Shown in pieces: positions 14,453-48,512 of a stretch of 64,000 bases of DNA. Under the pieces are notes generated by a model, which saw only the letters and a program-made list of their open reading frames with translations, had not been told where the DNA came from and did no database searches. Within the stretch, counting starts at the first letter, position 1, and each line of letters starts with the position of its first letter. Both the position numbers and the translations under genes were made by a program. The stretch is from the NCBI RefSeq assembly GCF_001553625.1, contig NZ_CP014230.1, forward strand, positions 2,604,001 through 2,668,000. The letters run 5' to 3'. This DNA is from Desulfomicrobium orale DSM 12838. Lineage in GTDB: Bacteria > Desulfobacterota > Desulfovibrionia > Desulfovibrionales > Desulfomicrobiaceae.

Positions 14453-15268
14453 TCAGGGGTGCGACACCTCTTGGATGCAAATCTGTTCCTTCATCTCAAA
14501 ACGCTGTGCCGACGCAGAATAGTCCCAGCGCTGGGCCTGCCATGCCGTGCCGCCTGACGTCCGGCGGATCAGATTGACGGAGTTGGGATAATTTTCCCGC
14601 ACCCGCCTGGAAACGGCCGTTCCGGCCTGAATGATCCACAACCGCTGCCCCTGTCCGTTCCCGGATACCGGCACAATGTAGGGATGATGAATGTGTCCGC
14701 CAAGCACGGCATCGGCACCCGCATCCAGCCATGCCTGAAGGGCCGCCTCCATGTTTCCGCGCAGCAGGTTTCTTCGTTCCGTCGCATGGAGCACATGAGC
14801 GGGCTGATGTACCGCGACCAGTTTCAGTGTCTGCGGTGCTGCCGTAAGACGCCGGGCCACTCCGGCAATCTGGTCGGAAGAAAGCTCGCCGTGGATGTGC
14901 CTGTGCGGCCGGGTGGTGTTCACGCCGATGACCGTCACGCCGGGGCAAACCAGGGAAGTCAGGCCGTGTCTGTCAAAAGGCGTCGGGAAAAATTCCTGGT
15001 ACAGACTGTGAGGGCGTATCAGACGTTGCCACGGGCACCACAAGGAGATGTCGTGATTTCCCGGAAGCGCGAGGACGTGGGGCACGGCCAGCGCCTGGAC
15101 ATACTCCCGCGCGGCCATGAATTGCCGCCGCGTGGCCCGCTGGGTGATATCTCCGGACAGCACGAGGGCGTTCACGCCCTCCTCCCTTGCCAGCCGCTTC
15201 AGCGCCTGGGCCACGGACCGCACTTCCGTACCGAAGTGAGTGTCCGAAAGATGAAGTAATGTGGTCAT
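14453..15268 (-). CDS. calcineurin-like metallophosphoesterase
   Basis: 271 residues. Metal-binding motifs in order: LLHLSDTHFG, VLSGDITQRA, ALPGNHDI, VAVHQPAH and LGGHIHHP. These are the five blocks of class III cyclic nucleotide phosphodiesterase/phosphoesterases. The substrate is not deducible. It lies 6 bp downstream of the lipid kinase gene on the same strand, so the two form an operon; a role in lipid or nucleotide signalling is only inference. Confidence 0.88.
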   Translation of the reverse strand: MTTLLHLSDTHFGTEVRSVAQALKRLAREEGVNALVLSGDITQRATRRQFMAAREYVQALAVPHVLALPGNHDISLWCPWQRLIRPHSLYQEFFPTPFDRHGLTSLVCPGVTVIGVNTTRPHRHIHGELSSDQIAGVARRLTAAPQTLKLVAVHQPAHVLHATERRNLLRGNMEAALQAWLDAGADAVLGGHIHHPYIVPVSGNGQGQRLWIIQAGTAVSRRVRENYPNSVNLIRRTSGGTAWQAQRWDYSASAQRFEMKEQICIQEVSHP

Positions 15269-24305: not shown

Positions 24306-25284
24306 CCAGGTATACGGAGTCAGTACAGACAAGCGGCTCATCGAAAGCCTGCGTCATAACTGCGGCCCTCTGCTGCTCGGGGCGCTGGAAGATACCGGGA
24401 TCATCGAAACAATGCTCAATCCTGACGGGACGTTATGGGTAGAAAGGTATGGTGCCGGCCAGGAATGCATTGGTTCCCTGCCGCTGTCCCAGGGTAAGAT
24501 GATCCTGTCCCTGGTGGCCTCGGCCCTCGGTGTCGTGGTCACAGACAAAACGCCCATCGTGGAAGGCGAATTCCCTTTGGATGGTGCCAGGTTTGAGGGC
24601 GCATTTCCGCCGATCGTCGGGCCGGGTGTGAGTTTCACACACCGCAAAAAAGCCTCCAAGGTCTTCACTTTGGAGGAATACCGGGCGGCTGGCTCGATTA
24701 CCACCGAAGGCATCGGGATCATCACCGACGCCGTGGCCCACAGAAAAAATATCGTTGTTGTCGGCGGCACCAGCTCCGGGAAGACGACATTCGTCAATGC
24801 GATCATCGACCGCATTTCCGCGCTTTGTCCGGATGACCGTCTGGTGATCCTCGAAGACACGGCAGAGCTGCAATGCACCAGCAAAAACAAGGTCTTCTTG
24901 CGGACCAGTTCGATTCCCGGGGCGGAAATCGGACTGCGCCAGCTGGCCAAGGTCTGCATGCGCTACAATCCCACCCGCATTTTAATAGGCGAAGTCCGCG
25001 ACGCCGCAGCTCTGGAGCTTTTGAAGCTCTGGAACACCGGCCACCCCGGCGGCATCGGCACATTCCACGCCGACAGCGCGGAAGAGGCGCTGGAACGCCT
25101 TGAAGAGATCGTCGAAGAAGCCGGGCTTGGCTCCAAGCAAAAGCTCATAGGGCGGGCTGTGGATCTTATCGTCTATATGGAAAAAACAACGGATGGTATC
25201 CGGCGTATTTCAAACATGATGCGTGTGGATTCTTTTGATTCTGCAACCTTAACCTACAATACGGAGGTCATTTATGAAGCCTAG
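24298..25284 (+). CDS. trbB: TrbB, VirB11-type traffic ATPase
   Basis: 328 residues. Walker A GGTSSGKTT near residue 157, Walker B LVILEDTAEL near 182 and the His box GIGTFHADSAEEAL near 243. Hexameric ATPase at the base of the type IV secretion channel. First of the trb operon, overlapping traM and trbC. Confidence 0.96.
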   Translation: MDNQVYGVSTDKRLIESLRHNCGPLLLGALEDTGIIETMLNPDGTLWVERYGAGQECIGSLPLSQGKMILSLVASALGVVVTDKTPIVEGEFPLDGARFEGAFPPIVGPGVSFTHRKKASKVFTLEEYRAAGSITTEGIGIITDAVAHRKNIVVVGGTSSGKTTFVNAIIDRISALCPDDRLVILEDTAELQCTSKNKVFLRTSSIPGAEIGLRQLAKVCMRYNPTRILIGEVRDAAALELLKLWNTGHPGGIGTFHADSAEEALERLEEIVEEAGLGSKQKLIGRAVDLIVYMEKTTDGIRRISNMMRVDSFDSATLTYNTEVIYEA

Positions 25285-33568: not shown

Positions 33569-33616
33569 CATAGTCATTTCCGTCTATTTTGGCCAACATA
33601 GAGAATGCTGACTATG
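33569..33616. repeat. palindromic array 1 (two 20-bp units)
   Basis: Unit 1 at 33569-33588 (CATAGTCATTTCCGTCTATT) and unit 2 at 33597-33616 (CATAGAGAATGCTGACTATG), separated by the palindrome TTGGCCAA. CATAG to CATAG is exactly 28 bp. It lies between trbI and the convergent hic genes. Confidence 0.85.
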
Positions 33617-33643
33617 GAAAGCTACAGGCAGAACAACACGGCT

Positions 33644-33982
33644 TCAGGGGTGAGAATGCAGAGAATCATTCAGAGCCCCTACAAGCCAGGCATTCAGGCT
33701 TTTCCCGTTCATGCGTGCCCGGACATCAAGCTCAGCATGAAGCTCCGGCGGCATACGAAGAATAATACGTCCGGAATAAGGCTTCTGTGGCTCCTTGACT
33801 GCTTTCGCGCAGGACTCCAGATAAAAATCCACCGCCTCCTCAAAAGCGGCGCGAATCGCCTCTACAGAATCACCATGAAAGCTTACTATATCGCGGATTC
33901 CCTGCAAACGGCCAATCAGGCAGCCATCCTCTTCACTGTATTCAATCGCCGCAGTGTAATTTTTGTACATCATTACGTTCAT
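33644..33982 (-). CDS. hicB: second HicB-family antitoxin without a toxin
   Basis: 112 residues. The N-terminal HicB fold (YTAAIEYSEEDGCLIGRLQGIRDIVSFHGDS) is followed by a C-terminal ribbon-helix-helix-like region (RMPPELHAELDVRARMNGKSLNAWLV). It lies 42 bp behind the complete hicA-hicB pair and has no HicA of its own. Start could also be the second or third Met. The two HicB proteins are clear homologues (KPYSGR in both), so this could be a duplicated or decoy antitoxin. Confidence 0.8.
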   Translation of the reverse strand: MNVMMYKNYTAAIEYSEEDGCLIGRLQGIRDIVSFHGDSVEAIRAAFEEAVDFYLESCAKAVKEPQKPYSGRIILRMPPELHAELDVRARMNGKSLNAWLVGALNDSLHSHP

Positions 33983-34024
33983 AGCCTGATTTCTTCTATG
34001 ACTATGGTGGGAAACAGAATGGTT

Positions 34025-34357
34025 TCAGGGGTAGACGGCATCTCTGATGACATCGGCGACCCAGCTGTTGAGGCTCTTGCGGTTTTTTCCCGCCTCAGCA
34101 GCTGCCCGCCGATGCAGATCAGGGGCAATACGCAGGTTGAAACGTCCGGAATAAGGCTTTTCCGGGGTTTTTCCTTCTGTGGTGCAGAACTCAAGGTAAT
34201 CTTCCACGGAATCTTTCAGAGCGGCTTTAAGCTCATCAATGGAGCGGCCCTGAAACGTAATGACATCGTTCAGGTCGAGAACTTCTCCATGAAAAATATC
34301 CGCTTCGGAATCATACTCAAAGCATCCGGTATAGCCTCTGTAATTCAGGCAATTCAT
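34025..34357 (-). CDS. hicB: HicB antitoxin
   Basis: 110 residues. HicB partial RNase H-like fold (YTGCFEYDSEADIFHGEVLDLNDVITFQG) and a C-terminal DNA-binding segment (IAPDLHRRAAAEAGKNRKSLNSWVADV). It overlaps hicA by 4 bp. It neutralises HicA and likely represses the promoter. Confidence 0.88.
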   Translation of the reverse strand: MNCLNYRGYTGCFEYDSEADIFHGEVLDLNDVITFQGRSIDELKAALKDSVEDYLEFCTTEGKTPEKPYSGRFNLRIAPDLHRRAAAEAGKNRKSLNSWVADVIRDAVYP

Positions 34358-34608
34358 ATTTCTCCTCCCGCAGTTTCCAGAAAACGCCTGACCGATTTCA
34401 CGGCTCCCTTATCTGTGTTTCTTTCCGGGTGCGGCCTGTGGAACGTAGCAAGCACGCCATTAAGGCTGATCCGTACCCGAGAGCCTCTTCCTTCCGTGAT
34501 TTCAGCGCCAAGGGCTACGAAAAGGCTTTCAATATCCGCCCATGGGATACCGGATCGAATCGGGTCGGCAAAAATGGCTTCCAGCGTCTTCCGCTGCTTG
34601 CTGTTCAT
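34354..34608 (-). CDS. hicA: HicA toxin
   Basis: 84 residues. The HicA double-stranded RNA-binding-like fold is visible (LEAIFADPIRSGIPWADIESLF, LNGVLATFHRPHPERNT); the HRPHP segment contains the catalytic histidine. It cleaves mRNA when free. Toxin first, antitoxin second, as usual for hicAB. Confidence 0.88.
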   Translation of the reverse strand: MNSKQRKTLEAIFADPIRSGIPWADIESLFVALGAEITEGRGSRVRISLNGVLATFHRPHPERNTDKGAVKSVRRFLETAGGEI

Positions 34609-34613
34609 AAGTC

Positions 34614-34627
34614 AGGCAGTACTACCT
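34614..34627 (-). promoter_or_regulatory. probable hicAB operator
   Basis: AGGCAGTACTACCT, a 14-bp near-palindrome 5 bp upstream of hicA; TTGACA of a promoter lies just upstream on the minus strand. HicB autorepression is inferred. Confidence 0.45.
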
Positions 34628-34655
34628 AACGACACCATGTCAAGCAGGTGCTGAT

Positions 34656-36572
34656 ATGAAATCACAGGACTATGGTCTCCCCGACCAGCAGCGATCCTCA
34701 TCCTTCCGCTGGCTGTACCTTCTCTTTGCCTTTTCCCTTGGAGTCATTGCCCTGTGGACCGTGACGGAGCTGACGGCCGTCCGGTACGGCCATGCCGCCG
34801 CTCTGGGCGCGCCCTGGTTCCGTGCCGGCGGGTATCCCGTCTATGCGCCGTGGTCCGTTGTGACCTGGTACTTCCGGTTTGGCGATCCTCATGGCGTGAT
34901 CGATCAGGCCAGTAATTACGGCCTGCTGATTTTCTTTCTGCCGCAGGCTCTGGTGATGGCGTATGCCGCATCCCAGGCCGGCATGAAGGGCAACAGAAAA
35001 CTGCATGGGTCGGCCAGATGGGCCACGCGGAAAGAAGTCGGGGACATGGGCTACCTGCAGGGCAGGGGCGTGTACATAGGCGGTTATGTTCCGCCGAAAT
35101 CGCGGCAGATCATGTATCTGCGGCATGACGGCCCGGAACATGTGCTGGCCTTTGCGCCGACCCGATCAGGCAAAGGTGTGGGGCTGATCCTGCCCACCCT
35201 GCTGTCGTGGTCTGGGCCATCCCTGATTCTGGACATCAAGGGTGAAAACTGGGCTCTGACAAGCGGCTGGCGCAAATCCCGGGGGCACACAGTCCTGCGG
35301 TTTGACCCGACGGACCCAAGCGGGAACTCGGCGGCCTTCAACCCTCTGGAGGAACTGCACCTTTTCTCGGAGCACGCCATCAGTGACGCCCAGAATCTGG
35401 CCCTGCTGCTCGTTGATCCCCTGGGCAAGGGGCTCGATGATCACTGGTCCAAATCCGGTTTTGCGTTTCTGGCTCCGGCCATACTGCATTGCTGCGTGAT
35501 GATCTGGTCGGAGCATGAACGGCCGGCCACGCTGACGGATTTGTCTTTGATGCTTGCCGATGAGAACCGGACAATCGACGAGCTGCTCCAGGAGATGATC
35601 GAGGAGGATCATGCCGCCCGGCTGCGCGGCCTGGCTCCCCATGCGACGGGCGGGGACGAGATACATATCTTCATCGCGGCCGGCGGACGCGAGATGCTGA
35701 ACAAGGCGGACAAAGAACGCTCCAGCGTCTTGTCCACGGTCGTCGTCAATCTGGCCCTCTACCGTGACCCGATTATCGGCAGAAACACAAACCATTGCGA
35801 TTTCCGTATCGACGACCTGCTGGCCCGCGAGGTTCCCGTTGATCTGTATCTGGTACTGCCGGCATCGGATACGGACAGAGTTATTCCGCTCGTCAGGATA
35901 ATATTCGACATGGTTGTGAGACGCATCACGTCGAAAATGGAATTCAAAGACGGTAAAAGCGTTGCCCCATACAGGCACAGACTTCTTTTCATGCTCGATG
36001 AATTCCCGTCCATCGGCCGCCTGCCCATCATAGAAAAAGCCATCACATACATCGCCGGATTCGGCGGCATCTTTTACATAATCATCCAGAATATCGAACA
36101 GCTCGGAAAGGTTTACGGCAAAGACAATTCGATACTCGGGAACAGTCATATTCTCATTGCCTACGCCTCGAACAATCCGGCGACATGCGAGATACTCTCG
36201 AAGATGTCCGGGACCACGACCGTGGTCCAGAAAAAGAAATCCGTTTCCGGCAAGGCGGGCAGCCGCAGTCCGTCCTTTTCGATCCAGGAGACAGCCCGGC
36301 CGCTGCTGACGCCGGATGAATGCTCCCGGCTGCCGGGCATGCGGAAGTCCGGGGATGAAATCCTGCCGGGCGACATGCTGATTTTCACGGCCGGCCGGCA
36401 TCCGATTTACGGGAAGCAGATTCTTCATTTCAAAGATCCTGTATTCTTGCAGCGCGCCCGGATTCCCGCTCCGGATGTAACGGACTCCCTGTACTTCCCG
36501 CGCCAGACTGCCGAGCCGGCTGAAAGCGAAGCTCCAAAAGGAAAAAGCTTTGAAGATTATCTGGAGGAGTAA
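34656..36572 (+). CDS. traG: TraG, type IV coupling protein
   Basis: 638 residues. Two N-terminal membrane helices, Walker A APTRSGKGVG near residue 169 and Walker B LLFMLDEFPSIG near 446. VirD4/TraG proteins bring the relaxase-DNA complex to the channel. The start codon follows AGGTG. It ends in a site used as ribosome site for traF. Confidence 0.96.
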   Translation: MKSQDYGLPDQQRSSSFRWLYLLFAFSLGVIALWTVTELTAVRYGHAAALGAPWFRAGGYPVYAPWSVVTWYFRFGDPHGVIDQASNYGLLIFFLPQALVMAYAASQAGMKGNRKLHGSARWATRKEVGDMGYLQGRGVYIGGYVPPKSRQIMYLRHDGPEHVLAFAPTRSGKGVGLILPTLLSWSGPSLILDIKGENWALTSGWRKSRGHTVLRFDPTDPSGNSAAFNPLEELHLFSEHAISDAQNLALLLVDPLGKGLDDHWSKSGFAFLAPAILHCCVMIWSEHERPATLTDLSLMLADENRTIDELLQEMIEEDHAARLRGLAPHATGGDEIHIFIAAGGREMLNKADKERSSVLSTVVVNLALYRDPIIGRNTNHCDFRIDDLLAREVPVDLYLVLPASDTDRVIPLVRIIFDMVVRRITSKMEFKDGKSVAPYRHRLLFMLDEFPSIGRLPIIEKAITYIAGFGGIFYIIIQNIEQLGKVYGKDNSILGNSHILIAYASNNPATCEILSKMSGTTTVVQKKKSVSGKAGSRSPSFSIQETARPLLTPDECSRLPGMRKSGDEILPGDMLIFTAGRHPIYGKQILHFKDPVFLQRARIPAPDVTDSLYFPRQTAEPAESEAPKGKSFEDYLEE

Positions 36573-36576
36573 ATTC

Positions 36577-37131
36577 ATGCTGGTGGTGCCCGCCTGCCTC
36601 GCTGCTGCGTTTCTGATGGGGTTGCGGGTGAACATGACTCCATCCCTGCCGCGCGGGCTGTACATCATGTCCGGTGACGCGCCGGCCAGAGGCGACACGG
36701 TGGGCTTCTGCCTGACCGGAGCCTTTGCCGGGCTGGGAGGTCAGCGCGGCTATCTCGCACCGGGCGGCTGCGCGTCCGGTTTGCGGCCGCTGCTGAAAGT
36801 TCTGGCCGGTGTTCCGGGGGACCGCGTTGCAGTCGAGAACGGCACCGTATGCATCAATGGGGTGGCATGGCCGCATGGCATCAGAAAGCTGGACAGTTCC
36901 GGCCGCCCTGTTCCCTCCTGTCTTGAGTCAACAACAATCCCGGCCGGGAGCGCCCTGGTGCTGTCGCCTCATGAAGGCAGTTTTGACGGCCGGTATTTCG
37001 GCCTGGTGCCGTTTGACAGTCTGCAAAAGGTAAATCCTGTTTTCCTCCTGGAGGTCAGAAATGAAGAAGGACAAGGAGTATCTGAAGGCCGCGGCTGCGG
37101 AGGTCGAACGTCAGCTCATGGAAAACCCTGA
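36577..37131 (+). CDS. traF: TraF-like pilin maturation protease
   Basis: 184 residues. S26-type peptidase fold: hydrophobic N-terminus, catalytic Ser in MTPSLPRGLYIM and Lys in LLKVLAGVPGDRV. TraF processes and cyclises the TrbC pilin in IncP plasmids. The ATG at 36577 follows GGAGGAG, better than the ATG at 36550 inside traG. Confidence 0.88.
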   Translation: MLVVPACLAAAFLMGLRVNMTPSLPRGLYIMSGDAPARGDTVGFCLTGAFAGLGGQRGYLAPGGCASGLRPLLKVLAGVPGDRVAVENGTVCINGVAWPHGIRKLDSSGRPVPSCLESTTIPAGSALVLSPHEGSFDGRYFGLVPFDSLQKVNPVFLLEVRNEEGQGVSEGRGCGGRTSAHGKP

Positions 37132-37246
37132 TCTGGCGATCCCTGTGGACCCTGATGTGGCCGAGTACATGGGAGCTTTCGAGGAAACCGCATTGACGGA
37201 AGCCGATGTTGAAGACGACGCGCTGCGCGGGATTGACGATGACTGA
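37061..37246 (+). CDS. small acidic protein in the tra cluster
   Basis: 61 residues, MKKDKEYLKAAAAEVERQL then an acidic tail (AEYMGAFEETALTEADVEDD), behind TGGAGGTC. It overlaps both traF (71 bp) and the traC-like gene (8 bp), which supports expression as part of the operon. Function unknown; the position corresponds to small accessory tra genes. Confidence 0.65.
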   Translation: MKKDKEYLKAAAAEVERQLMENPDLAIPVDPDVAEYMGAFEETALTEADVEDDALRGIDDD

Positions 37247-39320
37247 AAAACGTATCCCCTACCACGAGGAGTTTGCGGAAGAGGTCATCCGGCGTCTGGA
37301 GGCGGGCACCGCGCCGTGGCAGAAGCCCTGGAAGCCCGGCCACAGTACAGCGCCGCAGAATCCCGTCTCCGGGACAGTTTACCGGGGCGGCAACAGGGTG
37401 TGGCTGTCCATGCGCCAGCCGGATGATGATCCACGCTGGATGACCTATGCTCAGGCGCGGGAGATCGGCGCACAGGTCCGCAAAGGCGAAAGAGGCACAA
37501 GCATCGCCTTCTGGCAATGGACGAAGCAGGTCATGGAGAAAGACGCTGACGGCCGTCCCGTGCTGGATTCGGACGGCAGGGAAAAAAAGGTCACTGTCAA
37601 CCTGGAACGGCCGTTTGTCCGTTATGCCACGGTATTTCACGCCTCGCAGATCGAGGGCCTTGAACCCCACACCATTGACCCGCCCGCATGGGAACCTGTG
37701 GAGCGCGGAGAGCGCATCCTTTCCGGCAGCGGTGCGGCCATCAGACACGACCAGGCTGACCGGGCCTACTACCGCCCCGGCACAGACACGATTCATCTGC
37801 CGGGAAAGGAACAGTTTCCGGATGCCGCAAAATACTATGCTACGGCGCTGCATGAACTCGGGCACTGGACCGGACATAAAGACCGGCTGGACCGGGAATT
37901 GGGCAATTCTTTCGGCACTCCGGAATATGCACGGGAAGAACTGCGCGCGGAAATCGCATCGTGGATGCTCGGCAGCGAGACGGGTGTCGGGCACGATCCG
38001 GACCGTCACGCCGCCTATGTGCAGTCATGGATCAAGGCGCTGCGGGATGATCCGTACGAGATCATCCGCGCCTGCCGGGATGCGGAGCATATAAGGGACT
38101 ACCTGCTGGAGAGCGAACTCACCCTCCAGCAGGAAACAAGGCAGACGGAATCCCCCGCCCTGGACAGGGCGGGAGAAAAAGAAGCTCCTGCCATGGAGGT
38201 GCGAAAGACCATGGAAAAGACGTATCTGCATGTGCCCTTTGCCGAGAAGGATCTTGCCAGGAAAGCGGGTGCGCGATGGGACAAGGATGCCAAACTCTGG
38301 TTTGCGCCGGCCGGGTCCGATCTTGACGGCCTGCAAGCCTGGCTGCCGGACGGAAATCCAGGTCCGGCCGCGCCGGCCGATCCGCAGCAGGAATTCGGGA
38401 AGGTCCTCGCGGACATGGGACTTGATCTTGGCGGCAGCCTGCCGGTCATGGATGGCCGGATACACCGCGTATATGCGACGGTGGGCAAATCCGGCAACAG
38501 AGACGGCGCGTATTGCGGCTATCTGGACGGCCATCCCGCCGGCTGGGGACAGAACTACAAGACCGGTGAGAAAATCAACTGGACGGCACCTACGGGGCAT
38601 ACGCTCGATGCTGCCGCCCGCACCGCGCAGCGGCAGGAGATGCTTGCAAACCGCCGGCAACGGGAAGCGGAGATTGCGGCGGAGCATGACCGGGTGGCCG
38701 CGATATGCCGGGACATCTGGCAGGCACGGGAGAATGCCCCCGACGATCACGCCTATCTTCATTCCAAGGGCGTGCCCGCCCTGGGAGTGAAACTCTCACA
38801 AGGCGGGGACGTGCTTGTGCCGCTGCGAAACATTGATGGAGAGCTGCGCGGCCTCCAGGCCATTTCTCCGGCCGGCAACAAGCAGTTCATGGCCGGCAGC
38901 GAAAAAAAGGGCTGCTTTCACTTCCTTGGAGATGAGAAAGACCTCTCCAAAGAGGAAATCATTCTGGCCGAGGGCTACGCCACCGGCGCGAGTCTGCACA
39001 TGGGCACGGGCAAACCCGTGGCCGTGGCCTTTGACGCGGGCAACCTGGAAGTCGTGGCGAAGAAGCTCCGGGAGAAATACCCGGAAGCCAAGATTACTAT
39101 CGCTGCGGATAACGACCACGCCAGCCGGCGCAACATCGGCGTTGAATCAGCCCGGAAAGCCGCGCAGGCCGTGGGCGGCGTGGTGAAGGTCCCGACATTC
39201 ACGAAAGAGGAGAAGACGCGCGGCCTGACGGACTTCAACGACCTGCACAAGTTTCGCGGATTGAGCGAAGTCCGGAAGCAGATGGGCGTATCACGGCAGA
39301 GAGATGAGGTGGAGCGATGA
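37239..39320 (+). CDS. traC: TraC-like primase with ArdC-type and metalloprotease regions
   Basis: 693 residues in several modules: an ArdC-N-like ssDNA-binding region (about 1-130, WQKPWKPGH, FWQWTKQV), a zincin motif ALHELGHWTGH near residue 207, a DUF5710-type domain near 327-370 (YLHVPFAEKDLARKAGARWDKDAKLWFAP) and a C-terminal Toprim-type primase (ILAEGYATGASLHMGTG, ADNDHA near 624). It resembles IncP TraC, which primes the transferred strand. It overlaps topoisomerase by 4 bp. Confidence 0.85.
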   Translation: MTEKRIPYHEEFAEEVIRRLEAGTAPWQKPWKPGHSTAPQNPVSGTVYRGGNRVWLSMRQPDDDPRWMTYAQAREIGAQVRKGERGTSIAFWQWTKQVMEKDADGRPVLDSDGREKKVTVNLERPFVRYATVFHASQIEGLEPHTIDPPAWEPVERGERILSGSGAAIRHDQADRAYYRPGTDTIHLPGKEQFPDAAKYYATALHELGHWTGHKDRLDRELGNSFGTPEYAREELRAEIASWMLGSETGVGHDPDRHAAYVQSWIKALRDDPYEIIRACRDAEHIRDYLLESELTLQQETRQTESPALDRAGEKEAPAMEVRKTMEKTYLHVPFAEKDLARKAGARWDKDAKLWFAPAGSDLDGLQAWLPDGNPGPAAPADPQQEFGKVLADMGLDLGGSLPVMDGRIHRVYATVGKSGNRDGAYCGYLDGHPAGWGQNYKTGEKINWTAPTGHTLDAAARTAQRQEMLANRRQREAEIAAEHDRVAAICRDIWQARENAPDDHAYLHSKGVPALGVKLSQGGDVLVPLRNIDGELRGLQAISPAGNKQFMAGSEKKGCFHFLGDEKDLSKEEIILAEGYATGASLHMGTGKPVAVAFDAGNLEVVAKKLREKYPEAKITIAADNDHASRRNIGVESARKAAQAVGGVVKVPTFTKEEKTRGLTDFNDLHKFRGLSEVRKQMGVSRQRDEVER

Positions 39321-41272
39321 AGCTTTTCATTGTTGAATCCCCCGGCAAAGTGAAGAAAATCCAGTCCATGCTCGGAAACGGCTGGACCGTCGAGTCCAGC
39401 GCCGGACACGTCCGGGACCTGCCCGCCAAAGAGATGGGCGTGGCTGCTCCTGATTTCACGCCGCAATACGAACCCACGGAACGCGGCGCGGAAGTACTGC
39501 GGAAGCTGTCTGAACTGGCGGCCCAGGCCGATGAAATCTATCTGGCCACCGATCCGGACCGCGAGGGCGAAGCTATCGCCTGGCATCTGGCCGATGCGCT
39601 GAAGCTCTCCAGTCCCAAGCGGATAACATACACAGAAATCACAGAAAGCGCGGTAAAAGAGGCTGTCGCCCGTCCGCGCGGCATCGACCGCGACCTGGTG
39701 ACCGCCCAGGCCGGCCGGCGCGTGCTTGACCGCATCTGCGGTTATCTGGTTTCCGGCCCGCTCTCCCAGGCCACCGGCAACAGACTGTCCGCCGGCCGCG
39801 TCCAGTCTCCGGCCGTGCGTCTGGTCGTGGAGCGGGAACGGGTCATCCGGGCGCACCAGCCCATCACGCACTATGCGGTGCAGCTGCGCTTCGGGGACTG
39901 GACGGCGGACTGGAAGCCCTGGCTGGACGATGATGAAAAGTACTTCACGGACGAAGCCGCAGCACAGCGGGTGGCGCAGGTGCACGATCTGGAAGTCGCC
40001 GGATGCAGGGAATCCGAGTATCATTCATCGCCGCCCGCACCCTTTACCACTTCCGAACTGTTGCAGGCCGCATCCGCCACCCTGAAGCTCAATCCCGGCA
40101 AAACCATGCGGCTGGCCCAGCGGCTTTTCGAGGCCGGGCACATCACCTACATGCGTACGGATTCCTCCAACATTTCAGGAGAAGCCCTGGCCGCCGTCCG
40201 CGCCTGGTGCGCGGAGCACGGCCTTGCATATGTCAGTCCGCCACGCATCTGGCCGGCCGGAGACGGCGCGCAGGAAGCGCATGAAGCAATCCGGCCGACA
40301 CATATCGAGGTCGAGGAAGCCGGCGGCAGCGCCGAGGAAATGGCCCTGTACGAGATGATCCGGCTGCGGACCATTGCCAGCCAGATGGAGGACGCCGTGT
40401 ACGCCGTGCGTACGCTTCAGCTTCTGGACGACCTGGACGGCCGACCGGTCGAGTTCACAGCCAAAGGCCGGACTCTTGTCTCCGCAGGTTGGCGGGAACT
40501 GGCCCGCAACGATCAGGACGAGGAAGAGCCGGAGCCGGACAACCCTGTTCCGAAGCTGACCGCGGGGCAGGCAGTCGTGGCCACGAACGGGAAGGTCCTG
40601 GAGAAGAAGACCCGCCCGCCTGCCAGATACACAGAAGCCAGTCTGATCAGGGAGCTGGAAAAGCTCGGCATCGGACGGCCGTCAACCTATGCTGCCATCG
40701 TCTCGATGATCCTTGACCGGGGATATGTCGCAACGGAACAGCGGCACCTCATCGCCACTGAACTCGGTGAAACGGTCGTTGACAACCTGACCGGGAATTT
40801 CAGCTTTGTGGACTACGAATTTACCCGGGTAATGGAAGCTTCTCTGGACGCCATCGCTCAGGGCGAAGGCGATTACAGAAGCCTTGTGGCCGACGCCTAT
40901 GCCCAGCTTCAGGATGAGGTGGACGCCTTCCGCAGAAAAACATGCGTGCATTGCCCTGAATGCGGCAGCCTCGGCCTGCGTCATCTGGTCAGAGAAGCGG
41001 ACGGAAAGAACCCCAGGTTCTGGAATTTCTGGGCCTGCGACGACTGCAAGGCCACCTTCGCCGACGAAAGCGGAAAGCCGGGCTCCAGACAGGAAGCAAG
41101 GAAGGAATCTCCGTACAAATGCCCGAAGTGCGGCAGGCCCATGTATCGCCGCCAGGGTGAAACAAAAGGCAGGCGATACGACTTCTGGGGCTGCTCCGGG
41201 TACAAGGAGGGATGCAAGGTGACACTGCAATCCAGACCGGACGGCTCACCGGATTCTGAAAACAGAAGATGA
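39317..41272 (+). CDS. type IA DNA topoisomerase (TraE/TopA-like)
   Basis: 651 residues. Toprim motif FIVESPGKVKKIQSML at the start and TDPDREGEAIAWHL near residue 78; the catalytic Tyr is in HITYMRTDSSNI near residue 278. C-terminal cysteine pairs (CVHCPEC, CDDCKA, CPKCGRP) form zinc ribbons. IncP plasmids carry a related topoisomerase (TraE). Relaxes DNA during transfer or replication. The stop is 2 bp before the left array of palindromes. Confidence 0.93.
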   Translation: MKLFIVESPGKVKKIQSMLGNGWTVESSAGHVRDLPAKEMGVAAPDFTPQYEPTERGAEVLRKLSELAAQADEIYLATDPDREGEAIAWHLADALKLSSPKRITYTEITESAVKEAVARPRGIDRDLVTAQAGRRVLDRICGYLVSGPLSQATGNRLSAGRVQSPAVRLVVERERVIRAHQPITHYAVQLRFGDWTADWKPWLDDDEKYFTDEAAAQRVAQVHDLEVAGCRESEYHSSPPAPFTTSELLQAASATLKLNPGKTMRLAQRLFEAGHITYMRTDSSNISGEALAAVRAWCAEHGLAYVSPPRIWPAGDGAQEAHEAIRPTHIEVEEAGGSAEEMALYEMIRLRTIASQMEDAVYAVRTLQLLDDLDGRPVEFTAKGRTLVSAGWRELARNDQDEEEPEPDNPVPKLTAGQAVVATNGKVLEKKTRPPARYTEASLIRELEKLGIGRPSTYAAIVSMILDRGYVATEQRHLIATELGETVVDNLTGNFSFVDYEFTRVMEASLDAIAQGEGDYRSLVADAYAQLQDEVDAFRRKTCVHCPECGSLGLRHLVREADGKNPRFWNFWACDDCKATFADESGKPGSRQEARKESPYKCPKCGRPMYRRQGETKGRRYDFWGCSGYKEGCKVTLQSRPDGSPDSENRR

Positions 41273-41273
41273 T

Positions 41274-41388
41274 GCTGGACACCATAGACGTTTTTGGCTA
41301 TGCTGCCGGCAGCATAGTCATCTCTGTCTGTATTGGCCAACATAGACAAGGCTGGCTATGCCCGCGGAGATAGACAGTGCTGACTATG
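41274..41388. repeat. palindromic array 2 (four 20-bp units)
   Basis: Units at 41283-41302, 41313-41332 (degenerate right arm), 41341-41360 and 41369-41388, with spacers CTGCCGGCAG, TTGGCCAA and CCCGCGGA. It opens with GCTGGACACC, also found before array 3. CTATGCTGCCGGCAGCATAG (41298-41317) is a perfect 20-bp palindrome across the first junction. Confidence 0.85.
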
Positions 41389-41457
41389 CCGGATCTCGGC
41401 GGGGAAAACATGGACTGTCTTGGAAAAAACAGACTAATTTAACTTTTTGGAACGCAT

Positions 41458-41838
41458 ATGAAGGTGTTGTTATCTATTAAACCTGAGTTTGTGAGGAAAA
41501 TTTTTTCCAGATCAAAAAAATATGAATTTAGAAAGGTTTTATTTAGAAAAGAAGTTGAAAGTGTTATTATCTATTCTACAATGCCAGTAGGGCGTATTGT
41601 AGGTGAATTTACGATTTCTAATATCATTTCTGGGAAACCAAATATCATATGGGAACAAACTAAAGAACATTCAGGTATTACAGAAAAATTTTATACTGAC
41701 TATTTCATGAACAGGAAGTTGGCGCATGCCATAGAAATAGGGCGTCTCATAAAGTACGAGATAGAAATAAATCCGTTTATAAAAATTCCTAACTTTGTTG
41801 CCCCACAGTCATTTAAGTATATCCAATGCCCAGTTTAA
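41458..41838 (+). CDS. ASCH-domain-like protein
   Basis: 126 residues from MKVLLSIKPEFVRKIFSRSKKYEFRK, the typical start of ASCH proteins, which bind RNA or nucleotides. The gene is strongly AT-rich, unlike its neighbours. It lies between two arrays of palindromes and two copies of a 23-bp direct repeat (41274-41296, 41853-41875), so it looks like an inserted cassette. Role unknown; ASCH proteins may act in translation or defence. Confidence 0.75.
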   Translation: MKVLLSIKPEFVRKIFSRSKKYEFRKVLFRKEVESVIIYSTMPVGRIVGEFTISNIISGKPNIIWEQTKEHSGITEKFYTDYFMNRKLAHAIEIGRLIKYEIEINPFIKIPNFVAPQSFKYIQCPV

Positions 41839-41852
41839 CATAAACCCTGATC

Positions 41853-41937
41853 GCTGGACACCATAGACGTTTTTGTCTATCTCCGCGGGCATAGTCAGCA
41901 TTATCTATGGCGGCCGTAATAGACAAAGATGACTATG
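41853..41937. repeat. palindromic array 3 (three 20-bp units)
   Basis: Units at 41862-41881 (CATAGACGTTTTTGTCTATC), 41890-41909 and 41918-41937, exactly 28 bp apart, with spacers TCCGCGGG and GCGGCCGT. It begins with the 23-bp repeat shared with array 2 and ends just before the methyltransferase ribosome site. Confidence 0.85.
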
Positions 41938-41955
41938 CCCGCGGAGGTTGAGGAG

Positions 41956-42615
41956 ATGGGGTACCTTGGGTCAAAACAGGCATCCGGAGCATATCAGGCA
42001 ATCATCAGCCAGATGCCCCCGCATGACCTTTACATTGAGACCCATCTTGGCGGTGGTGCTGTCATGCGTTTGAAGCCACCCGCTGCAAGGTCTATCGGCA
42101 TCGATCTTGACCAGGCTGCTCTTGACTCGTTTTCCTGCTCGTATCCGGTAGAGCTGGTCTGCGCTGATGCCCATGATTTCATAGCCAAAATTGACTATGC
42201 CGGATCTGGGCGTGTGCTGCTTTACGCCGACCCGCCCTATTTACACTCCACACGCGGAAAATCCAGGTACCGGTACGAATACACGGACGCGGACCATGTT
42301 GAGCTTATCCGGAAACTCCAGTCTGTTCCGGCGCATGTGATTATTTCCGGGTATCCTTCAGCTTTGTACGACTCTTTGCTTTCTGATTGGCGTACTGTGG
42401 AATTTCAATCAATGACCAGAGGCGGAGTCCGTACCGAGAAACTCTGGATGAATTTTGATTCCGGCTTTGTACATTGGCATTCATACGCTGGCGCAAATTT
42501 CACGGATCGTCAAAGGATCAAGAGAAAAGCTGAAAGGTGGGCCACGAAATTCCGCCAGCTCCCCGGAGCTGAACGATTAGCAATATTGGATGCTCTGCTG
42601 TCCGTCAGGGATTGA
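41956..42615 (+). CDS. D12-class DNA adenine methyltransferase
   Basis: 219 residues from MGYLGSKQASGAYQAIISQMPPHD; GGAGG 8 bp upstream decides the start. Motif I-like THLGGGAV, motif IV ADPPYLHS near residue 97. It methylates N6 of adenine at an unknown site, perhaps protecting the element. One 20-bp palindrome unit lies inside the coding sequence at 42180-42199, read as FIAKIDYA. Confidence 0.88.
   Translation: MGYLGSKQASGAYQAIISQMPPHDLYIETHLGGGAVMRLKPPAARSIGIDLDQAALDSFSCSYPVELVCADAHDFIAKIDYAGSGRVLLYADPPYLHSTRGKSRYRYEYTDADHVELIRKLQSVPAHVIISGYPSALYDSLLSDWRTVEFQSMTRGGVRTEKLWMNFDSGFVHWHSYAGANFTDRQRIKRKAERWATKFRQLPGAERLAILDALLSVRD
42180..42199. repeat. palindromic unit within the methyltransferase gene
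   Basis: CATAGCCAAAATTGACTATG fits the 20-bp consensus of the arrays and is followed by CCGGATCT, as is the last unit of array 2. Confidence 0.75.
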
Positions 42616-42704
42616 TCTGACGCATACCATTTGACGCACCCCGCTCTCTGCCCTAGCGTTCATTTTGGAGCCTGAAGGCTGGCCCCCGTAAGGAGGTCAT
42701 GCCT

Positions 42705-42791
42705 ATGGAGCAATTCCTATCGGACGTTGCGGCCCATGTGGTTGGCGGCGTACTGGTTGCGTTCATACTGCGCCGGATTTTCCGGCGGTAG
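42705..42791 (+). CDS. 28-residue membrane peptide
   Basis: MEQFLSDVAAHVVGGVLVAF, then ILRRIFRR. The AAGGAGGT site at 42690-42697 is ideally spaced (8 nt) from this ATG; another ATG at 42699 is too close. One hydrophobic helix with a basic C-terminus, a layout seen in type I toxins and small regulatory membrane peptides. It is followed by strong hairpins. No homologue recognised. Confidence 0.5.
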   Translation: MEQFLSDVAAHVVGGVLVAFILRRIFRR

Positions 42792-42801
42792 GTAAAACAA
42801 A

Positions 42802-42832
42802 GCCCCTGTAGGAGTTGCATTCCTACAGGGGC
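42802..42832 (-). terminator. perfect hairpin after the small peptide
   Basis: A 12-bp perfect stem GCCCCTGTAGGA/TCCTACAGGGGC with a 7-nt loop. T-rich sequence (TTTGTTTT) follows only on the minus strand, so it may end an antisense transcript running over the peptide gene. Confidence 0.55.
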
Positions 42833-42876
42833 AAAAACCTTGAGATGTGAATCTCGGGGGCTTGCCCCGGCTCCGG

Positions 42877-42907
42877 GGCCGAGTGTTGACGCACTCGGCC
42901 TTCTTCT
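42877..42907 (+). terminator. terminator of the small-peptide transcript
   Basis: GGCCGAGTG/CACTCGGCC stem with a 6-nt loop and TTCTTCT. Between this and the hairpin at 42802 are further short stems (GAGA/TCTC, GGGGC/GCCCC). Confidence 0.6.
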
Positions 42908-43050
42908 ATGGCGCGGCATGAGCCTTGTCAACTTGTCAGTGGCCAGCGCCGGTGAAGCACTTGTATGAGAACAGCCTGCTGAACCTTGACAGCTTTGTTT
43001 TCCCACGACTACTTATTTTGGTAGAGCTGAATTTTTATCGGAGGAAAGTC

Positions 43051-47512: not shown

Positions 47513-48371
47513 TTAGATGCCCAAGTTAATCAGATGTTTGATTCCTTGGCTTGGGGCCAAGTGGGCATAGCGCATTGTCATCCTGATGTTCGTGTGCCCC
47601 AGCAGTTGGGCCACAACCGCAAGCGGTGTACCATCCTGAACAAGCCAGCTTGCAAATGTATGCCGGAGTGTATGGAAAACCACTTTATTCCGGCGGTCCA
47701 CATCAGGCGGATTAAGCCCTGCCCGCTCTACTGCTGAAGTGAAAATCCTGCTGACGAATCGTATTGGCGAGCAGGTCTGATCATTGAAAAAAAGATAGGG
47801 ACGATTCAGGCAAGCATGTCGCTGAACAACTTCCAATGCTTGTGCGTTTAGGTATATTGATCTGTTTAGAGTAGACTTCGTATCAAAGATATGGATGTAT
47901 CTATTTTGTATATCCAAGCTTGATTTGCGTAATGAAAAAATTTCGCCTGCTCTAAGCCCAGTATATAACGCAATAGCTGTGATGTCATGCCATAAAAGAT
48001 TTTGACGAAGCTCTTCCAGTAATTTTCTGGCCTCTGATTTTGACAGAAATCTAACACGGCGGTTGTCATAAGAGCGAAGCCTAATTTTAGGGATTGCCAT
48101 GTCGCATAGACCATAATGAATGCTAAAATTAAGCACTCTTTGAAGTAGCGATATGCAATGTTTGATAGTTTGCGGGCTTAGCTTTCTGCTTTGCAGATAG
48201 GACTTGAATTGAAGTAGCTGCACTGAGCTAAGAGTGTTGATTTTCCTATTTGCTCCAAAAAAAAGCGCAAATATGTTTCCATCGTCCTGAATCAGTTACT
48301 TGTGATCGTATTTTTCGATCTGTCAGGACGTTATTAAAGTAGAAATCCCACAAATCTTGTAAAGTCTCCAT
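47513..48371 (-). pseudogene. int: tyrosine integrase, split by a frameshift in an 8-T run
   Basis: The catalytic part (47513-48223) has the R-H-R-Y set: TGLRAGEI, HTLRHTFASWL, LLGHTNIRMTMRYAHL. The N-terminal part starts at 48371 (METLQDLWDFYFNNV) behind AGGAGG and runs to a stop at 48246. The two frames join perfectly if one T is removed from the 8-T run at 48257-48264: AFFGANRKINTLSSVQLLQ is then read through. It may be a true mutation, a sequencing error, or transcriptional slippage that restores the full protein. Confidence 0.85.
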
Positions 48372-48451: not shown

Positions 48452-48499
48452 CGGCCTTTCACGCCGATAACAGGGGTTCAAATCCCCTTGGGGACGCCA
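48452..48499 (+). repeat. right attachment repeat (attR), 48 bp
   Basis: Copy of the tRNA-Glu 3' end including CCA, identical to 21294-21341, 81 bp beyond the integrase start. Confidence 0.93.
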
Positions 48500-48512
48500 A
48501 TAAAGAAAAATA

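Follow-up and report, generated by a model that had tools for sequence, protein, structure and literature searches.

Arrays of short palindromes beside genes have their closest described counterparts in repetitive extragenic palindromes (the REP, BIME and REPIN families), in operator arrays such as KorB sites and C-protein boxes, in the structured regions of Frpo/ssi and M.EcoGIX-type systems, and in the upf31.0 locus of IncP-1 plasmids. Here, we compare these systems with arrays of 20-bp palindromes in a conjugative element of Desulfomicrobium orale DSM 12838, which lie within a stretch of 64,000 nucleotides (contig NZ_CP014230.1, positions 2,604,001 to 2,668,000; hereafter the window) beside cargo genes that include a small adenine methyltransferase, an ASCH-domain protein and hic genes. 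These arrays are a dense local form of a DNA element that is widespread in phages, plasmids and conjugative elements and seemingly undescribed.

The REP-like repeats likewise consist of short, imperfectly palindromic units that are joined by conserved linkers into modular arrays, some units being inverted, and that lie between genes, often at gene ends, but the palindromes studied here reside on mobile elements of unrelated bacteria, in few copies and with short directional palindromes beside them (labels, such as TGGCCA), and the genome encodes no Y1 transposase. Operator arrays share with them the multi-copy dyad sites before genes and the covarying arms, whereas the present arrays also occupy convergent gaps; to our knowledge, neither the site sequence nor the 10-bp gap between the arms nor the label palindromes resemble those of phage or plasmid operators (KorB sites, C-protein boxes). 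A structured region ahead of a plasmid-borne adenine methyltransferase is also characteristic of the Frpo/ssi and M.EcoGIX-type systems. However, M.EcoGIX and M.BceJIII, which protect conjugating plasmids, are beta-family enzymes and belong to a different methyltransferase family, for which expression from a single-strand promoter upon entry has been proposed (PMC7736820), and the palindromes described here are without strand bias and occur also in phages. The IncP-1 plasmid pAOVO02 carries a homologous methyltransferase in the same place, after trbL-trbM and related genes (trbL-trbM-...-upf31.0; other IncP-1-type records name the homologue upf31.0), and CATCG...CGATG palindromes precede it, while arrays with the tight 28-bp period, like the ASCH gene, are particular to the host of the window.

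Palindrome arrays of the window and their wider family

An earlier note on the window had listed ten 20-bp palindromes of the form CATAG-N10-CTATG, and all ten were recovered, starting at 33569, 33597, 41283, 41313, 41341, 41369, 41862, 41890, 41918 and 42180. With up to two mismatches allowed, the pattern CATAGNNANNNNTNNCTATG had 10 matches in the window, compared with a mean of 0.97 and a maximum of 4 in dinucleotide shuffles. The start-to-start period is indeed 28 bp in all arrays, except for one step of 30 bp (41283 to 41313), and the spacers are, as had been described, fully palindromic or built on a palindromic core (TTGGCCAA, CTGCCGGCAG, CCCGCGGA/TCCGCGGG and GCGGCCGT). This palindromicity is a conserved feature, with TGGCCA, CTGCAG or GGTACC also standing beside the palindromes of phages and plasmids. 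One correction to the earlier description concerns position 6, which is mismatched (T.T, A.A or A.G) in most of the ten palindromes, because the natural repeat in the best-conserved stretch is a 48-bp dyad of two palindromes whose outer and inner arms pair across a GGCC centre. This unit, which reads CATAGTCA-TYTY-YGTCTATT-NYGGCCRM-CATAGANA-AKGC-TGACTATG in the aligned array cores, is present at 33569-33616 and 41313-41360 and, inverted, at 41890-41937.

Methyltransferase homologues on plasmids are also preceded by CATAG-N10-CTATG, with five palindromes on Acinetobacter pKBN10P02143 and one to two on Shewanella pSBP3. Five of the six whole plasmids tested had 1 to 10 sites against 0 for a reversed control pattern; the sixth, chosen solely for its ASCH gene, had none. 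When IMG/VR was scanned for the motif only (two palindromes 8-38 bp apart, with no gene criterion), 7 loci were found, and 7/7 encode an adjoining methyltransferase homologue (44-223 aligned residues). We further assembled 45 upstream regions that are less than 80% identical from 80 methyltransferase relatives in IMG/VR, and generalised the site to CAYRG, a core of YA-N4-TR, and CYRTG. These regions contain 103 sites compared with 2.4 in shuffles, and 40 of the 45 have at least one; site density per kb is 6.4 upstream of the methyltransferase, 0.33 at a distance of 0.9-2.6 kb and 0.05 in shuffles. Where the methyltransferase has a preceding operon gene, the sites are found before that gene (loci L101, L134, L173 and L174).

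The arms differ between elements (CATAG, CACAG, CATCG, CACTG), yet the dyad is kept, with both sides changing. Mismatched pairs in the 103-site set comprise 35 sense-strand and 31 other-strand wobbles, and as neither strand is preferred there is no sign of RNA or single-strand structure, which favours recognition of duplex DNA. The labels GGTACC, CTGCAG and TGGCCA are present in 32/45, 35/45 and 36/45 regions, where the same-contig background predicts 0.6, 1.2 and 1.4 occurrences overall, and a label or its 4-bp core falls within the next 8 bp at 86 of the 103 sites. Their order follows an orientation grammar: in the direction of transcription, TGGCCA stands after rather than before the palindrome in a ratio of 27:3 upstream of the methyltransferase and 20:2 at other loci, and ATCGAG precedes rather than follows it 20:1. 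The window spacers TTGGCCAA, CTGCCGGCAG and CCGCGG are the local version of these labels. The arrays are thus both real and conserved, and they are apparently selected as dyads with directional neighbours.

Within the genome (2.78 Mb, single contig), palindromes with at most one mismatch cluster at only two places, the window element and 2134488-2137572, both of them in mobile elements; the random scatter across the chromosome that had been named as speaking against the family was not seen. The second cluster belongs to another, diverged conjugative element, with 67-75% nucleotide identity over few alignable backbone stretches and 42% for VirD4. The two elements have in common a cassette of array, ASCH gene, array and methyltransferase, which in the window extends over 41273-42931 and is 88-99% identical and reversed in the second element, where it is placed after an ardC/primase gene and has an insertion sequence (IS) within its ASCH gene. 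The second copy of array 2 has its two-palindrome unit in the opposite orientation and one palindrome fewer, despite flanks of about 99% identity on both sides; rearrangement is thus faster in the arrays than in the sequence around them.

The nearest relatives of the conjugative element do lack the arrays, so that a doubt about conservation raised in the earlier note is borne out for them and is contradicted by the unrelated plasmids and phages. Among 60 related genomes there was no true second case of an array, the sole match being a lone site, and the loci of 20 relatives found via VirD4 had no palindrome arrays but only coincidences in coding sequence. The tight two-unit 28-bp pattern gave 12 lone pairs and no clusters in 84,980 species genomes, which is about the chance expectation; a blast search of array 1 against plasmids and phages returned chance pieces only, a consequence of the divergent arms and spacers; the cassette stretch 41273-41947 had no match in E. 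coli genomes; and no Rfam family matched the arrays above chance. Literature searches on REP-like repeats in integrative and conjugative elements (ICEs), upf31.0, P2-like methylases and orphan methyltransferases yielded no account of the palindromes. The impression that no known element has this layout thus holds for the tight 28-bp array and fails for its building block, which is widespread in mobile elements.

A putative control region and its competing explanations

We read the palindromes as duplex binding sites of a dyad-recognising protein that would serve mainly to control the methyltransferase operon and adjacent cargo on mobile elements, and give this reading a probability of roughly 0.42. 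The operator sites proposed in the earlier note are retained in it as the best account. The sites, with their conservation, placement, orientation and covarying arms, are observed, and we infer a binding protein, its identity and repression. The recognised dyad would consist of the arms CAYAG/CTRTG and the core GNCA-N4-TGNC. Cooperative binding at several 5' sites, the last of them near the ribosome-binding site, may hold the cargo silent once the element is established, and would allow its expression after entry or induction. In the window the array of the cassette is duplicated, with one copy for the ASCH gene and one for the methyltransferase. Consistent with such a role, two of the window arrays stand directly 5' of these two genes, and the right arm of array 2 (CCCGCGGAGG) holds a GGAGG resembling a ribosome-binding site ahead of the methyltransferase.

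The first candidate for the binding protein would be the methyltransferase itself, by self-regulation, because no other gene was found in repeated linkage with the arrays of phages, plasmids and the window element. PF02086 covers only its DPPY half, under the curated cut-off, and the protein seems to lack the target-recognition domain usual in such enzymes, since motif I and DPPY are just some 60 residues apart. The predicted model (mean predicted local distance difference test score, pLDDT, 85) partially matches Dam, with a template modelling (TM) score of 0.55; at its end, a helical hairpin carries an invariant IKRK and, judging from the model, could bind DNA.

Several observations weigh against this reading. 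No regulator gene common to all carriers was found. Motif-plus-label scans of IMG/VR gave 60 distinct loci, of which only 11 have the methyltransferase within 1.5 kb, and among another 31 records, each 30 kb or longer, it is located elsewhere in 12 and absent from 19. Full arrays also lie in convergent gaps, where no promoter needs control (SEN5 15016-15099, a site of pSBP3 at 24339 and window 33569); on pBJ83 three of four near-identical arrays are convergent, and the methyltransferase has no array in the 3 kb upstream. These convergent-gap arrays argue most strongly against a role purely as promoter operators. Related phages are, moreover, not independent in the family counts, and the nominal p-values are too small.

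A more general proposal, which we hold only tentatively and consider doubtful, is that of an oriented cis-element class ([ATCGAG or CTGCAG]-palindrome-[TGGCCA or GGTACC]) of temperate phages, conjugative plasmids and ICEs in many bacteria, as yet unnamed, that would be read by a single protein family and coordinate the expression or protection of cargo across mobile elements. Its reader would perhaps be the linked methyltransferase, which seems to have no target-recognition domain, or else some host factor.

A close rival, though itself unlikely, holds that the palindromes are orphan mobile repeats of the REP/BIME/REPIN kind or of the kind of miniature inverted-repeat transposable elements, which are modular, copy into intergenic spaces with their machinery elsewhere and accumulate beside the methyltransferase and other cargo. 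By a simple open reading frame (ORF) rule, 58 of 66 distinct motif hits are intergenic, for instance between the genes for tail terminator and tail completion, beside tail sheath genes, or between those for head protease and decoration, and the modular order of palindromes and labels varies between relatives. Copying is further suggested by the arrays of pBJ83, which recur in four places with 97-99.5% identity over 90-380 bp, by the SEN5 array block, which recurs by itself in phage phiT5282H (84.6% identity), and by terminal inverted repeats of 52-66 bp with a palindrome that flank the methyltransferase at L097/L096 (IMGVR 3300024947); the inverted unit and lost palindrome of array 2 fit as well. 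However, the genome lacks both a Y1 transposase (PF01797) and a serine recombinase, with positive controls, and the palindromes form just two chromosomal clusters. Three related Acinetobacter plasmids have their arrays at identical places, within larger 380-bp repeats, and no insertion polymorphism was found among them, so that no fresh mobility is seen. A fixed direction relative to transcription would also be unexpected of an idle repeat.

Rather less plausible are homology islands at module boundaries, that is, short common sequences at which cargo is swapped by homologous or annealing recombination. The cassette common to the two conjugative elements does begin at the left end of array 1, and arrays sit at cargo or moron spots (virB10-virD4 here, tail fibre assembly-tail sheath in phages), but the right end of the common cassette (42931) is not at a window array, the large deletion that distinguishes pAS53-3 from pKBN10P02143 has no endpoints at arrays, and homology requires neither dyad conservation nor a fixed orientation.

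We find it similarly improbable that the palindromes act as hairpins in single-stranded DNA or RNA, either as an Frpo/ssi-type entry promoter for the methyltransferase, by analogy with the single-strand promoter thought to drive the other conjugative-plasmid family (PMC7736820), or as an mRNA structure hiding its ribosome-binding site. Single-strand folding of array 2, GGAGG included, is far stronger than that of shuffles (z -8.2 and -10.2), but the equivalent array of the second element folds no better than shuffles (z +0.7), the wobbles show no bias for either strand, P2-like phages are among the carriers, and convergent gaps offer no gene to express.

Cre/Flp-like or resolvase-type recombination sites, a suggestion of the earlier note to which the 8-bp cores between inverted arms in the window and the inverted unit of array 2 lend some appeal, are very unlikely, since serine recombinases (PF00239, positive controls) are absent from the genome, no recombinase common to both elements was identified, core sequences differ within a single array, and two-armed cores are the exception in a family in which TGGCCA follows the palindrome 27 times and precedes it 3 times. 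The conjugative element has one tyrosine integrase, near its att site, and gives no sign that this enzyme acts on the arrays.

Four narrower candidates were dropped: serine resolvase subsites, as the PF00239 search found no serine recombinase gene; RAYT/REP machinery, as the PF01797 search found no Y1 transposase; a type III toxin-antitoxin system (tandem RNA repeats before a toxin) for array 1 and the ASCH gene, as units are also inverted and geneless; and OxyR-type ATAG spacing, which differs from the spacing here.

Features of the cassette and the conjugative element

The conjugative element spans tRNA-Glu (21264) to a copy of the tRNA 3' end near 48463-48500, and the coordinates of the arrays and their neighbours are collected in Table 1. 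The integrase at 47513-48223 appears to be without its N-terminal part, and the att duplication of the tRNA-Glu end lies at about 48463-48500.

Table 1 Features of the palindrome arrays and adjoining cargo genes (window positions)
Feature	Position	Strand	Description
virB10-end array	33569..33616		Two palindromes around TTGGCCAA, one 48-bp unit; between the virB10 3' end and convergent hicB
hicB, hicB, hicA	33644..34608	-	Cargo between virB10 and virD4
Array 1 left end	41267..41304	+	TGAT.GCTGGACACCATAGACGTTTTTG; common to array 2 and the second element
Array 1	41283..41388	+	Four palindromes, spacers CTGCCGGCAG, TTGGCCAA, CCCGCGGA; directly 5' of the ASCH gene
ASCH-domain protein	41458..41838	+	126 aa; PADLOC PDC-M11B, phrog_3136
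Array 2	41848..41947	+	Left end TGATCGCTGGACAC; palindromes at 41862, 41890, 41918, spacers TCCGCGGG and GCGGCCGT; directly 5' of the methyltransferase
Adenine methyltransferase	41956..42615	+	Small Dam-type (D12), 219 aa; homologue of IncP-1 Upf31.0, phrog_56 member
Internal palindrome	42180..42199	+	Within the methyltransferase coding sequence (FIAKIDYAG)
Cassette tail	42667..42931	+	Conserved; 28-aa hydrophobic peptide and hairpins; 93% identical in the second element

Arrays 1 and 2 have the left end TGATYGCTGGACACCATAGACGTTTTTG in common, and that of array 1 contains a promoter-like TGGACA-17-TATGCT (41276-41304), a type of match whose count is at chance level. The palindrome at 42180 falls in a conserved stretch of the methyltransferase gene and is probably set by coding and not an independent array member, although its flank, CCGGATCT.GGCG, agrees with how array 1 ends. 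The right flank of array 1 at 41389-41400 (CCGGATCTCGGCG) resembles the coding letters that follow the internal palindrome at 42200-42211 (CCGGATCTGGGCG), and the terminal repeats of L097 have TTGGATCCGGAGG at the equivalent place. In L097/L096 the methyltransferase gene with its terminal repeats occurs twice in one contig, beside AATAAAGTTTCATACTGAA-like repeats.

The ASCH protein matches the PADLOC candidate defence family PDC-M11B at 8e-46, and its plasmid relatives adjoin acetyltransferase or methyltransferase genes. Two 399-aa ORFs (L001:14090-15289 and L001:5491-6690) resemble copies of one IS transposase, and one of these IS copies sits in the ASCH gene of the second element with a 10-bp duplication (AGATCAAAAA). 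The hydrophobic peptide of the cassette tail (42705-42791, MEQFLSDVAAHVVGGVLVAFILRRIFRR) looks like a type I toxin or a holin-like peptide, and a strong hairpin-terminator lies on the opposite strand at 42802-42832.

In most relatives virB10 and virD4 are adjacent, without hic cargo between them; one relative (L068) also has a hicB in this place, without an array. The tandem hicB pair of the window (33644-34357) has similar 3' flanks and is accompanied by a single hicA, and a more degenerate palindrome was read by eye between the two hicB copies at about 33981-34007.

Significance of a possible common reader

A conserved directional element that stands beside a modification gene and between modules of otherwise unrelated mobile elements points to a common reader. 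Once found, this reader would reveal how the timing of anti-restriction and cargo genes is set in phages and plasmids, and the palindrome element provides a simple sequence handle for locating cargo loci.

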